Shown here: positions 13,686 to 41,580 of the stretch, one piece after another | How positions within the stretch are numbered: position 1 is the first letter of the stretch | Layout of the letters: every line of letters begins with the position of its first letter | DNA from: Balneolaceae bacterium | Lineage (GTDB): Bacteria > Bacteroidota > Rhodothermia > Balneolales > Balneolaceae | Length of the DNA: 54,810 nt | NCBI GenBank assembly: GCA_020832415.1 | Contig: JAFIES010000088.1 | Location: 1 to 54,810, forward strand | Direction of reading: 5' to 3' | Notes under the pieces: model-generated | Databases searched by the model: none | What the model was told of the DNA's origin: nothing | The model's input: the letters and a program-made list of their open reading frames with translations, nothing else | Made by a program: the position numbers and the translations under genes

Positions 13686-13729
13686 ACGTTGTAAAGCTCC
13701 AAGATCCAAATCTCAAATTCCAAACATAT

Positions 13730-13759
13730 GTTGACAGTTGATAATTTACAGTAGACAAC
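13730..13759. repeat. Left inverted repeat of four-helix-bundle cassette 1
   Basis: A 30-base segment beginning GTTGACAGTTGATAAT and ending ACAGTAGACAAC matches the reverse complement of 14382-14411 at 24 of 30 positions (counted by eye). Further partial copies (GTCAATTGTC) lie at about 13810-13825. Confidence 0.65.
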
Positions 13760-13878
13760 TTTAGAACTGAAAAATGAGCTTGATTGAACTGATATATAGT
13801 TTAAATGAATTGTCAATTGTCGATTATTTTATCATGATGATCAAATAGTATTGACCATCAATAATTAACTTTAAAAAA

Positions 13879-14258
13879 ATGTCTAAAAACTTTAGGGATT
13901 TAACGGTTTACAAGAAGGCATTTAATCTGGCAATGTTTGTATTTGATTTAACTAAAAAGTTTCCGTCTGAAGAGAAGTATGCGTTAAAGATCAGGCTCGA
14001 CGATCATCCAGATCGGTCTGTAGGGCAATTGGAGAAGGCTACAGAAAAAGGCTGTATCCGAAACATTTTATTACTAAAATGAGTGATGCAGATATGGAAA
14101 ACACCGAAACACAAATTTCTATGGATTTTGCTCTTGCATGTGGATATATCACGAAGGAAGAAAATCTGGAAGTCCGAACAAGATCTGAAGAAATCGGTAA
14201 ACTTTTGAATCACATGATCAAAAACCCGGAACGTTATCAACGCAAAAACTCAACTTAA
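13879..14258 (+). pseudogene. Four-helix-bundle (S23/IVP-type) protein gene, frameshifted
   Basis: The ATG at 13879 begins MSKNFRDLTVYKKAF, the standard start of the four-helix-bundle family first described in 23S rRNA intervening sequences. After EKYALK (near 13987) the frame is lost. One base earlier, the correct continuation reads DQARRSSRSVCRAIGEGYRKR and runs to YQRKNST with TAA at 14256-14258, which is the expected family C-terminus. A single-base deletion near 13985-13989 explains this. The product would be about 126 residues if repaired. It could be a sequencing error, but degenerate duplicate sequence downstream also points to decay. No rRNA gene is nearby. Confidence 0.85.
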
Positions 14259-14328
14259 TGAGCAAGATGTTTGTTTGAAGAGTTGTCAGTTGTCTATTAT
14301 CAACTTTACATTACTTACAAATAAATTT

Positions 14329-14433
14329 CGAAACATTTTATACTTAAAACTCAACTTAGCAAGCAAGATTCTTATATGAAAGTTGTTAACTGTCAATTGC
14401 CTACTGTCAACTTTTTAAACAACGAATACAAAA
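14329..14433 (+). repeat. Internally deleted copy of the four-helix-bundle gene 3' end
   Basis: CGAAACATTTTAT at 14329-14341 repeats 14059-14071 inside the gene, and ACTCAACTTA at 14349-14358 repeats the gene's end at 14248-14257. The bases after both copies (GCAAGAT, then TTGAAG or ATGAAAG, then a TTGTCA-type repeat) are also alike. So 14329-14433 looks like a duplicate of the gene's 3' end and flank that lost about 175 bases. Confidence 0.6.
14382..14411. repeat. Right inverted repeat of four-helix-bundle cassette 1
   Basis: Reverse-complement partner of 13730-13759 (24 of 30 positions). It begins GTTGTTAACTGTCAATTG and ends CTACTGTCAAC. Together the two repeats delimit a 682-base unit containing the broken gene and nothing else. 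Confidence 0.65.
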
Positions 14434-38259: not shown

Positions 38260-38340
38260 TAATTAACGTGAGTTCGATATAACATTTATATGACGGGTTC
38301 AGCCATATTGTTCATTTTGATATCGAACTCATGTTAATTA
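38260..38340. repeat. Palindromic element, copy 2 (81 bp)
   Basis: Arms 38260-38280 and 38320-38340 are inverted repeats matching at 20 of 21 positions (core GTGAGTTCGATAT / ATATCGAACTCA). The interior, read on the minus strand, contains GAACAATATGGCTGAACCCG, one base different from the copy at 2190-2210. The right arm includes the TAA stop of the minus-strand permease gene, and the left arm begins 17 bases after the sprA stop. It could fold as a bidirectional terminator. Confidence 0.85.
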
Positions 38341-39564
38341 TTTACCGAAAGAGAGAACTTTTACAGGATCCGTCTTCGCTGCTACTCGAGCGGGCAGCCA
38401 GGATGCCAGCGTACAGAGAAGAATTGTGATGGCAGCCACAATAACAAAATCGAGCAGGTGCGGCTCAACCGGCGCGGTGCTCATGTAGTAGTTCTCTTCT
38501 GAAAGAGGGATGATCTGAAAAGTGATCTGCAGCCAGTAGAAAAGCAGCGAAATTCCAATCCCTATGAAGAGGCCTGAGATAGCAACAAAGAGTCCCTCAA
38601 GCAGAAAAATCTGACGGATGGATTTACTTTTTGCACCGATTGTTTTGAGTATCCCGATATCTTTGATCCGTTCGAGAACCATCATCAAAACAGTGCCAAT
38701 TAAATTGAATGCCGCAACAATAATCATCACTCCAATTACAAGCGGAATAGTCTCCTCCTGAAGATCAATCCAGGCAAAAATGTTTCTGTAGCGCTGATAG
38801 ATACTCTCTGTTACATAGGGGAAACCGGTTTTATCCCTGATTTCGGCATAGACTGCTTCAATCTGATTTGGATTTTCCACATTTATCTCCAGCATGCTGG
38901 CATGGCGGGGATTAAAATTAAACAGATTTTTTACATGCCGGATATCTGCCAGGGCAAAATTATCATCAAAACGGGCAATTCCCGTCTGATAAATTCCGGT
39001 GAGTGTAAATTGCTGAATTTCCGGGCTGTTGAATGGAGTTGGTAAGCCATCGATGGCATAGGTGGTAATTCTGCTGCCCACCTCTGCGCCGATAGTTCGC
39101 GCGAGCGCCGTTCCCAGTATAATTCCCGGCAAACCATTCTCCTGAACGCTCAAATCGTACACGCCCGAAGTAATATAGGTACGTAAATTGGTTACATCAC
39201 CCGCTTCAGGTACGCCTTTAATAACCGTACCGCTTACATCGCGGGCTGATTGAACCATTACCTGGCCAATGATAACCGGCTGGGTTTCTGCCACACCCGG
39301 AATTGCAGCAACATGTGTCTGGAGTGTATCAGCTCTGAATAAAGGTTCGCCGGTGTACGATGAAACCGTTACATGGGGGGCAAATCCAACAATTTTTTCG
39401 TTAATGGTTGATTTGAATCCATGAACAATAGAGAGGGCAATCAGAAGTCCGGCCGAACCTATGGCTACACCGGCAATGGCCATAAATTTAATGAAGGATA
39501 GAAAGCGAGAATCTCTCTTGTTTCCTCTGAAGTACTTGCCGGCAATGTACCAGGTAAATTTCAT
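38338..39564 (-). CDS. LolC/LolE-type lipoprotein-releasing ABC permease (FtsX family)
   Basis: 408 residues. The N-terminus KFTWYIAGKYFRGNKRDSRFLSFI followed by a membrane helix (AIAGVAIGSAGLLIALSIVHGF) is the usual start of LolC/E proteins. A periplasmic domain covers about residues 45-265, and three C-terminal helices follow, with ERIKDIGILKTIGAKSKSIRQIFLLEG as the ATPase-contact segment. Such permeases release lipoproteins from the inner membrane together with LolD. No LolD is adjacent. The TAA stop falls inside the palindromic element at 38260-38340. Confidence 0.88.
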   Translation of the reverse strand: MKFTWYIAGKYFRGNKRDSRFLSFIKFMAIAGVAIGSAGLLIALSIVHGFKSTINEKIVGFAPHVTVSSYTGEPLFRADTLQTHVAAIPGVAETQPVIIGQVMVQSARDVSGTVIKGVPEAGDVTNLRTYITSGVYDLSVQENGLPGIILGTALARTIGAEVGSRITTYAIDGLPTPFNSPEIQQFTLTGIYQTGIARFDDNFALADIRHVKNLFNFNPRHASMLEINVENPNQIEAVYAEIRDKTGFPYVTESIYQRYRNIFAWIDLQEETIPLVIGVMIIVAAFNLIGTVLMMVLERIKDIGILKTIGAKSKSIRQIFLLEGLFVAISGLFIGIGISLLFYWLQITFQIIPLSEENYYMSTAPVEPHLLDFVIVAAITILLCTLASWLPARVAAKTDPVKVLSFGK

Positions 39565-39567
39565 CTT

Positions 39568-39587
39568 CGGGTTGCGTGTTGCGGGTT
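39568..39587. repeat. Left inverted repeat of four-helix-bundle cassette 2
   Basis: CGGGTTGCGTGTTGCGGG and the next two bases match the reverse complement of 40036-40055 at 17 of 20 positions. A further TGTTGCGGGTT follows at 39591-39601, so the repeat is internally iterated. The last codons of the four-helix-bundle gene (KTRNT) are written in this repeat. Confidence 0.65.
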
Positions 39588-39966
39588 AAGTGTTGCGGGT
39601 TTTCCCTTTCCATTGTTCTTCCACATATTGGATGAACGTATTCAATTTTCTGCCGAGTTTGTCATATTTAGTGAGAAAATCAGTCAGAGGATTGGAATCA
39701 AAATGGATCTCGCTAATGGTTTCAATATGAGAGATTGTTTCATCACAGGAAGCATGGGCAAACACGAGAAAACGTATAAATTCGTTTTTATATCGCCTTC
39801 TGCCAAAACCTTCAACAATATTATCCTTTATACTCTTTGATGATCGTCTTATCTGGCTGCCTTGTTCGTATAATTCGTATTTAGGCAAGGTCAGTGACAT
39901 TTTATGTACTTCTATAGCATAATCATATGCAAGTTGATACACTTCCAGGTCTCTATAACTTTTCAT
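39586..39966 (-). CDS. Four-helix-bundle protein (S23/IVP family), intact
   Basis: 126 residues. It has the full family pattern: YRDLEVYQLAYDYAIEVHKMS, LPKYELYEQGSQIRRSSKSIKDNIVEGFGRR, then FLVFAHASCDETISHIETI and LTDFLTKYDKLGRKLNTFIQYVEEQ. Proteins of this family were first found in 23S rRNA intervening sequences but occur widely as free-standing genes; no enzymatic role is established and they form pentamers in structures. No rRNA is near. It lies between lysS and the LolC-like gene, enclosed by inverted GCGGGTT-type repeats at 39568-39587 and 40036-40055. It is a distant relative of the broken copy at 13879. Confidence 0.9.
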   Translation of the reverse strand: MKSYRDLEVYQLAYDYAIEVHKMSLTLPKYELYEQGSQIRRSSKSIKDNIVEGFGRRRYKNEFIRFLVFAHASCDETISHIETISEIHFDSNPLTDFLTKYDKLGRKLNTFIQYVEEQWKGKTRNT

Positions 39967-40035
39967 AATACGTTGATGTAGTTAATTATTGAATGATGAA
40001 TATTCATTCTTTCGACCTTGATACACATAACCTGC

Positions 40036-40055
40036 AACCCGCATCCCGCTACCCG
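40036..40055. repeat. Right inverted repeat of four-helix-bundle cassette 2
   Basis: AACCCGCATCCCGCTACCCG is the reverse-complement partner of 39568-39587 (17 of 20). It lies directly beside the end of lysS (stop at 40057-40059). An additional AACCTGC unit precedes it. Confidence 0.65.
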
Positions 40056-40056
40056 T

Positions 40057-41580
40057 TCACTCCGGCCTCATCAGCGGGAAAAAGAGTACGTCACGGATTG
40101 AGTCGGAATTGGTCATGATCATTGCCAGCCTGTCGATACCAATACCGATACCTGCTGTTGGAGGCATGCCATATTCAATAGCTCTGAGGAAATCTTCATC
40201 AATTGTCATCGCTTCATCATCGCCTTCGCTTCGTAAACGAGCCTGGTCTTCAAAACGTCTGCGCTGATCAACGGGATCATTCAGTTCTGAAAACGCATTG
40301 GCAATCTCTTTTCCATTGCAGATAGCCTCAAACCGCTCAACAAGACCTTCTCTGGTGCTGTGTTTTTTGGCAAGCGGACTCATTTCAATCGGGTAATCGG
40401 TAATGAATACCGGCTGTATCAGTTTCGATTCAACAAATTCACCGAAAATCTCATCAATAATTTTGCCTTTACCCATTCCATCTTCAATATGGATCCCGAG
40501 TGATTCTGCAATTTTTTCGATCTCCTGATCACTCTTTCCGTAGAGGTTATGTCCGGTCTCTTTTTCGATCGCTTCATACATCGGGATTTTGGGCCAGGGG
40601 CGTTTGAAATCAATTTCGTGCTCACCCACTTGAACAACCGTTGATCCATGAAGTGTAATGGCAACCTGCTCGATCATTTGTTCCATGAAATCCATCATCC
40701 AGTTGTAATCTTTGTAAGCCACATAGAGCTCAACCTGTGTGAACTCAGGATTGTGGAAACGGGAGAGGCCTTCATTGCGAAAATCCTTTGAAAACTCATA
40801 CACACCGTCAAATCCACCAACGATTAACCTCTTGAGATAGAGCTCATTTGCGATGCGCAGATAGAGCGGCATATCGAGTGCGTTGTGATGTGTTTTGAAT
40901 GGGCGTGCGGTTGCGCCACCATAAATTGGCTGCAAGATCGGGGTTTCAACTTCAAGGTATCCGCGCTCGTTCATAAAATCGCGCATGGTCTGAACCATTT
41001 TGGTGCGTTTGATGAATGCATCGCGCACATCGGGATTAACAACCAGATCCACATAGCGCTGGCGATATCTCAGTTCCTTATCAGAAAATGCATCGTATCG
41101 TACAACTTCACCTGCTTCGTTTTCAACCTCTTTTGGAGTAGGGAGCGGACGCACTGTTTTGCCAAGAAAGGTAAACTCTTCAGCATGTATGGTAGTTTCA
41201 CCTGTGCGGGTTTTAAACACAAACCCTTTGATACCAACATAATCTCCAATATCTACAAGTTTTTTGAAAACAGTGTTATACTCATCCGTTCCAATATCAT
41301 CCCTGCGGATGTAAACCTGAATGATGCCATCGGAATCCTGAACCGTAAAGAAAGATGCCTTTCCCATAATGCGGCGTGTCATTACACGGCCGGCAATTGA
41401 AACTCTCGGTGCATCTTCCTGGGATTCTGTTTGAAGTGATTCATCGGAATGAATTTCAGCAGAGAGATGCGTTACATCAAATTTTGTTGGAAATGGATTG
41501 ACACCAAGTTCCCTTAGCTGATCAAGCTTTTCAAGCCGTATCTGTTGTTGTTCGCTTAAGGATGGTTCGGGATTACTCAT
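40057..41580 (-). CDS. lysS: Lysyl-tRNA synthetase, class II
   Basis: 507 residues. The N-terminal OB-fold anticodon-binding domain ([23 protein letters not shown]) is followed by the class II catalytic domain with motif 1 ([27 protein letters not shown]), motif 2 ([18 protein letters not shown]) and motif 3 ([16 protein letters not shown]). The C-terminus [12 protein letters not shown] is the standard LysS ending. It attaches lysine to tRNA-Lys. The gene is divergent from the phosphopantetheinyl transferase gene and is followed by the four-helix-bundle cassette. Confidence 0.97.

Follow-up and report, generated by a model that had tools for sequence, protein, structure and literature searches.

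The locus described here raises the question of how the repeats that flank a small gene come into being: are they made anew at each site, or are they the inherited ends of an element? The window, that is, the whole stretch of DNA that was analysed (54,810 nucleotides of a Balneolaceae bacterium), contains two genes of the S23 family, each lying between inverted arrays of a short repeat unit. A sequence-only reading of the window considered this arrangement hard to explain by chance and suggested that the flanks are generated by a mechanism such as iterative copying. The source genome comprises 3.94 Mb in 152 contigs and is 95% complete.

The cassette between lysS and lolE

The cassette and its neighbours consist of the following features.

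38338..39564, minus strand: downstream neighbour, LolC/E-like lipoprotein-releasing permease (TIGR02212, 259 bits, under the curated cut-off of 362)
39568..39601, minus strand: 3' arm, five heptamers in gene sense, AACCCGC AACACTT AACCCGC AACACGC AACCCG
39586..39966, minus strand: intact S23 / 23S_rRNA_IVP / "four helix bundle protein" gene, 126 aa (PF05635 and TIGR02436)
40029..40055, minus strand: 5' arm, four heptamers in gene sense, CGGGTAG CGGGATG CGGGTTG CAGGTT
40057..41580, minus strand: upstream neighbour, lysS, lysine--tRNA ligase (NCBIfam TIGR00499, 621 bits)

As had been read from the letters, inverted GCGGGTT-type repeats enclose the intact gene: positions 39568-39587 and 40036-40055 are complementary in inverted orientation at 17 of 20 nt (85%), and the best inverted score between the two arms is 18, compared with a cross-locus median of 9 and a 95th percentile of 14. 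While this inverted pair holds, the arrays have other limits than those first drawn: the left array is longer, reaching 39601 with five units, and the right array occupies 40029-40055 with four, which can also be written ACGGGTA GCGGGAT GCGGGTT GCAGGTT in gene sense. The lag-7 scores of the two flanks (11 and 9) exceed the 99% shuffle limits (8.2 and 8.6), and the arms have the form of heptameric (STRR-like) arrays, with tandem 7-nt units in an intergenic position. The repeat also runs into the coding end, as had been claimed: the inner 16 nt of the 3' arm form the last stretch of the open reading frame, TAA stop included, and the C-terminus KGKTRNT is encoded by the arm (AAA ACC CGC AAC ACT TAA). 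The 5' arm begins 1 nt from the stop codon of lysS and the 3' arm ends 3 nt from the start codon of lolE. All three genes lie on the minus strand, and the cassette may be expressed by read-through.

The S23 protein matches PF05635 with 89 bits (cut-off 33.8) and TIGR02436 with 98 bits (cut-off 24). Its AlphaFold model is a confident up-down four-helix bundle (pLDDT 94.5), whose top PDB match is 2GSC, Xanthomonas XCC0516 with five chains in the structure, followed by 2RLD; the query-normalised TM scores are 0.81-0.86 to the chains of 2GSC and 0.64-0.73 to those of 2RLD. Weaker matches are Avd, a pentameric nucleic-acid-handling accessory protein of diversity-generating retroelements (DGRs), and the DGR ribonucleoprotein. 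This similarity of fold, together with weak matches of the S23 proteins of the source genome to the bAvd Pfam profile, would suit a retroelement origin, in which S23 works with a reverse transcriptase as its DGR relative Avd does and iterative cDNA copying gives rise to the arms. A profile search of the 95%-complete genome, in which the control profiles were detected, found no RVT_1 reverse transcriptase, and we regard such an origin as very improbable.

The other cassette of the window

The other cassette, cassette 1, lies on the opposite strand.

13726..13762, plus strand: 5' arm, GTTGACA/GTAGACA-type units (inverted score of 21 with 14379-14415)
13894..14210, plus strand: S23 gene whose coding sequence is split over two frames (PF05635 matches in two parts, 13894-13989 and 13968-14210, with one TGA)
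14379..14415, plus strand: 3' arm

A further arm-like array of the same unit is found at 14281-14307. The unit is that of the gene's own subfamily, GTTGACA/GTAGGCA. The two cassettes of the window do carry unrelated repeats, GCGGGTT-type and GTTGACA-type, because their proteins belong to different S23 subfamilies.

Occurrence of the architecture in the S23 family

The source genome contains nine S23 loci, most of which follow the same plan, with the units AGTATTG, ACGGGAA, CTGAATT, CACCCAG, AGTAGGC, TTGAATG, GCGGGTT and GTTGACA; the CTGAATT unit is clear in one flank only, and the unit at one locus (L009) is not clear. For the main analysis, we collected 90 full-length S23 members by searching the source genome and 40 relatives from its genus and order. 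In this set, both flanks show autocorrelation peaks at lags of 7, 14 and 21 that the genes do not show. About 60% of the flanks (57/90 upstream, 54/89 downstream) score above the 99% shuffle limit, and the best period is 7 in two thirds of the flanks and 8 in about a sixth. When each 5' flank is compared with the reverse complement of its own 3' flank, the median score is 19.5 versus 9 across loci (p = 1e-35). A G-skew is found in the 5' arm of 70 of 76 cassettes, so the polarity of the arms relative to the gene is nearly fixed.

A wide set of 80 loci, drawn from Bacteroidota and some Acidobacteria, Planctomycetota, Poribacteria, Cloacimonadota and others and leaning towards one subfamily group, gives a similar distribution: the best period is 7 in 39-42 flanks and 8 in 15-17. 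In both sets, iterated inverted repeats characterise the S23 family at large, and the suspicion that the architecture is not due to chance is borne out. The contrary outcome that the sequence-only reading had named, other members lacking such repeats, is not the general picture, period 7 being dominant in the flanks of the 90 members. The three-part architecture is secure: the S23 gene in the middle and, outside it at its 5' and 3' ends, arrays of a 7-nt (or 8-nt) unit in inverted orientation.

The period itself (7 or 8) is not a clean mark of protein clades, since it is weakly clustered on the tree (9 changes versus 11.4 expected). Separately, unusually long arrays adjoin S23 genes at three loci, namely, the 8-nt unit CGGTACTA at L093 (G036:C98), the 8-nt unit GAGNGGGN at L112 (G024:C132) and the 7-nt unit GGGATTA at L207; these are candidates for length polymorphism at the strain level.

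Repeat unit and protein subfamily

One check named in advance was whether the repeat unit is specific to the locus. Spelling is shared within a protein subfamily across unrelated sites, and many clades of the S23 tree have their own unit family. Where two cassettes lie in different neighbourhoods, their units are more alike the closer the proteins: similarity climbs from about 0.15 at background to 0.44 at 55-70% protein identity and to 0.62 above 70%. When pairs with extended nucleotide homology are excluded, the mean unit similarity at a protein identity of at least 0.65 is 0.563, whereas 2000 label permutations give a mean of 0.173 and a maximum of 0.312 (p≤0.0005). Conversely, pairs in the same neighbourhood with less than 35% protein identity remain at background (0.177). 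The corresponding values in the wide set are 0.79 at an identity of at least 0.65 versus 0.18. These comparisons show that repeat spelling tracks the S23 protein subfamily and not the chromosomal site; gene and arms therefore form one movable unit.

Inheritance and instability of the arms

A transposed pair of cassettes from two species (L075 and L076) is 89% identical over 492 nt, and the homology is confined to the cassette. The two 3' arms are nearly base-for-base alike over about 30 nt, the homology stopping at the arm, while the 5' arms differ. Similarly, the orthologous lysS-lolE cassettes of G005 and G015 have an identical 3' arm and 5' arms of different length. Since spelling is linked to the subfamily and the 3' arm of L075/L076 moved with its gene, the arms are inherited parts of the element, contrary to the suggestion that the flanks are made anew. 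The possibility that unit number varies, likewise named for checking, fared better: the length of the 5' arm differs among the lysS-lolE cassettes of related species, and two or three heptamers stand upstream of the S23 ORF in Coxiella burnetii, depending on the strain (PMC4990558). The better account is that the arms are inherited element ends that are unstable in unit number, mostly in the 5' arm, and this account requires no special copying machinery.

Within a locus, unit variants follow one another collinearly in the two arms, more so than permuted units do (Wilcoxon p = 2e-12). Insertions and deletions in multiples of 7 were also sought between orthologous arms; there is a slight excess at 7 only.

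The lysS-lolE junction was compared across relatives. In species of other families, the gap between the two genes is 11-14 nt at four of six junctions and 102-110 nt at the other two, and in two congeneric species it is 48 nt, with no array. Other relatives have a truncated S23 gene (G004, probably also G016 and G010), gene-less arrays (G012 and G007) or, just ahead of lolE, a short remnant of AACCCGT units (G013 and G002). The S23 proteins of the four long lysS-lolE cassettes (G000, G019, G005 and G015) form a single clade. The simplest reading is one old insertion that has decayed repeatedly and is intact here. Among the younger cassettes tried, none revealed a clean empty site or a target duplication that would mark a recent insertion.

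Cassettes fill nearly the whole spacer in which they lie, the arms being at a median of 2 nt from the neighbouring stop codon and 9 nt from the neighbouring start codon (130 cassettes), where a typical co-directional spacer has 83 nt; divergent gene pairs are avoided (3/115). The closeness of the arms to start codons would suit a domesticated regulator, that is, an S23 gene and arms that are kept to regulate the flanking operon by attenuation, processing or translation, with the arrays at start codons as binding sites. The S23 genes are in addition under purifying selection (dN/dS 0.02-0.28), and array remnants persist beside lolE in species without the gene. The identified neighbours (e.g., lysS/lolE and ispG), however, have no common function, and truncation or loss of the lysS-lolE cassette in several sister species indicates that it is dispensable there. 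We consider a regulatory role improbable.

Arrays without a gene

To survey arrays lacking a gene, 418 kb of the source genome were scanned, a part chosen for its contigs, most of which carry S23 genes. Lag 7 is the most enriched short period in this sequence (11 versus 0 in shuffled sequence, threshold 11). By position, six of the 12 clear non-coding arrays flank S23 genes and six stand alone. The relatives contain dozens of array matches, often as facing pairs of the same polarity. One such pair, at L216 9825-9895 (G000:C28), consists of gene-less AGTATTG-type arrays facing each other a few nt apart, possibly a short (MITE-like) derivative of an L001-type cassette.

Repeats that are common without S23 genes had been named in advance as a finding against a link to the gene. 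Gene-less arrays are indeed common; on the other hand, they use the same unit families as the cassettes and often have the facing-pair layout, so that they look like relatives of cassettes. They may be shortened copies or remnants. The idea that gene-less arrays require a cognate S23 gene is not supported, since array number does not simply follow the matching gene: in G003 and G021, arrays of one unit family are abundant without a clear S23 gene of that subfamily, and in some genomes with a matching S23 gene, arrays of that unit family are scarce.

The abundance of these arrays is what would be expected if arrays came first, with heptamers growing in any spacer through slippage of the polymerase and the S23 genes landing in or between them. 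In many bacterial genomes, heptamers outnumber every other class of tandem repeat (PMC4679880, PMC4692102), and array length differs between orthologues. This order of events is already disfavoured by unit spelling, which follows the protein subfamily at unrelated sites; the fixed polarity of the facing arms, with the G-skew noted above, and the transfer of a 3' arm with its gene to another site (L075/L076) also argue against it. It is an improbable explanation.

A promoter-like element shared with competence genes

The pattern TGTAAG-N17-TTCATA (TGTAAGG-N16-GTTCATA) stands between 5' arm and gene in 21 of the 90 cassettes, with a gap of exactly 17 nt in 21/21, and its first box lies on the gene side of the 5' arm in 17 of 18. 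The window cassette lacks it, as do most of the 90. Copies number 21 in the source genome (L230-L250) versus 1 for the reversed control pattern, and 22 versus 3 in the relative G011 (L251-L272). Downstream of these copies are recA, radC, comEA, comEC, comM/yifB, recQ, comF-like, GIY-YIG and S23 genes, as well as an integron integrase (417 bits, cut-off 265) and IS200-type Y1 transposases; G011 adds GxxExxY and DUF559 genes. Because of its fixed spacing and position, we read the element as a putative promoter. The genes behind it are those to be expected of a competence/recombination regulon, which it appears to serve in this Balneolaceae genus. It is not confined to antisense cassettes, its presence being unrelated to orientation relative to the upstream gene (Fisher p = 0.79).

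Several genes behind the element deserve mention in their own right. The integron-type integrase is at L232:509-1465 (G000:C26), with a fragment in G011 (L264). IS200/RAYT-like Y1 transposase genes are at L233, L235, L245, L265 and L271, some with REP-like palindromes in their flanks. GxxExxY (PF13366) genes (L261, L266, L268, L275-L298) lie between inverted arms of CGCNGAG-type units at a spacing of about 9-10 nt, and many of those in the genus share the element; they make up a second family of protein-plus-repeat cassettes.

The element bears on whether the arms act as RNA or as DNA. The main rival to a DNA role is an element that acts at the RNA level and corresponds, between genes, to the 23S rRNA intervening sequence. 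Its arms would pair in the lysS-S23-lolE read-through mRNA into a stem for RNase III to cut or for S23 to bind, the protein thus acting on RNA. In the RNA fold predicted for the entire element, the arms do form the closing stem (z = -3.96), their variants are collinear, and 78 cassettes are co-directional with the neighbouring operon versus 18 that are not. In addition, the rRNA inserts that contain S23 ORFs in Coxiella, Leptospira and others have ends that pair into RNase III stems (PMC4990558). Against this, a sizeable minority of cassettes are antisense to the operon, and the window contains no rRNA (no Rfam match at all), the cassette being situated between lysS and lolE. Moreover, where the promoter-like element is present, its position on the gene side of the 5' arm would leave the cassette's own transcript without that arm, which favours a role of the arms in DNA. 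An RNA-level element is, in our estimation, unlikely, though to be taken seriously.

Comparison with known repeat systems

The 23S rRNA intervening sequences of Leptospira and Coxiella encode the same protein family and have complementary ends, and the ends of the window cassette likewise close a stem. In contrast to them, the window cassette lies outside any rRNA gene, between protein-coding genes, both ends are iterated arrays of a subfamily-specific unit, and many relatives have their own promoter-like element. Note that the rRNA insert of C. burnetii contains tandem heptamers, GACAGAT, upstream of the S23 ORF (PMC4990558).

Intergenic 7-nt arrays similar to those described here are the heptamers of Xanthomonas (GGGAATC), Nostoc and Beggiatoaceae (TAACTGA) and the cyanobacterial STRRs. 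These published systems centre on one unit per genome, whereas many units per genome are found here. In Xanthomonas, 70-75 convergent heptamer pairs per genome lie close to the 5' neighbouring ORF (PMC4692102), and heptameric repeats are abundant in other taxa as well (PMC4679880); the main texts of these two papers make no mention of S23 or "four helix".

The GxxExxY (PF13366, PDDEXK_3) cassettes of the same genus resemble S23 cassettes in their inverted iterated arms and, in many cases, in the promoter-like element, but they differ in the protein and in unit spacing, S23 units being 7 or 8 nt. REP elements, too, are short, inverted and intergenic; a small protein is dedicated to them, and many of their copies lack the gene. 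A likeness to REP/RAYT and IS200-IS605 systems is that Y1 transposase genes share the promoter-like element in this genus. S23, however, lacks a Y1/HUH domain, and in place of single GTAG- or CGTC-tagged palindromes it is accompanied by iterated 7- or 8-mers. The window cassette conforms to this difference, with PF05635 as its only domain, iterated heptamers and no transposase; IS200-type genes are present elsewhere in the source genome.

Proposed mechanism

Our main reading, to which we give a probability of roughly 0.5, is that of a mobile cassette whose S23 protein would recognise its own end repeats and whose spread would be linked to competence. The S23 protein, whose relatives are pentameric four-helix bundles, would bind its own arms, probably with one unit per subunit. 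The substrate would probably be folded single-stranded DNA, because the putative internal promoter would exclude the 5' arm from the cassette transcript. DNA uptake and homologous recombination would then carry the cassette along as a passenger; alternatively, its spread may be helped by single-strand transposases or integrases of the same regulon.

A more far-reaching version, which we put forward as a doubtful one, makes S23 cassettes a separate class of mobile element that moves in natural transformation. Each subunit of the S23 pentamer would read one unit of the cassette's own 7- or 8-nt end repeats, the DNA being single-stranded and folded. The cassettes of RAYT, integron integrase and GxxExxY would join those of S23 in a competence-induced intergenic set, each with its own repeat code.

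To our knowledge, S23 genes have been regarded for decades as passengers of rRNA intervening sequences, with no function assigned, and bacterial genomes are known to abound in 7-nt repeats, for which there is no agreed cause. In open-access full text, we found no link between intergenic S23 genes and arrays, and the open-access literature yielded neither subfamily-specific units nor a grouping of S23 genes with competence genes. The present results tie S23 genes to 7-nt repeats and thereby make both testable, and the promoter-like element ties many S23 genes to DNA uptake in this genus. If the S23 protein does read the repeat, the predicted target of each subfamily would be written beside its gene.
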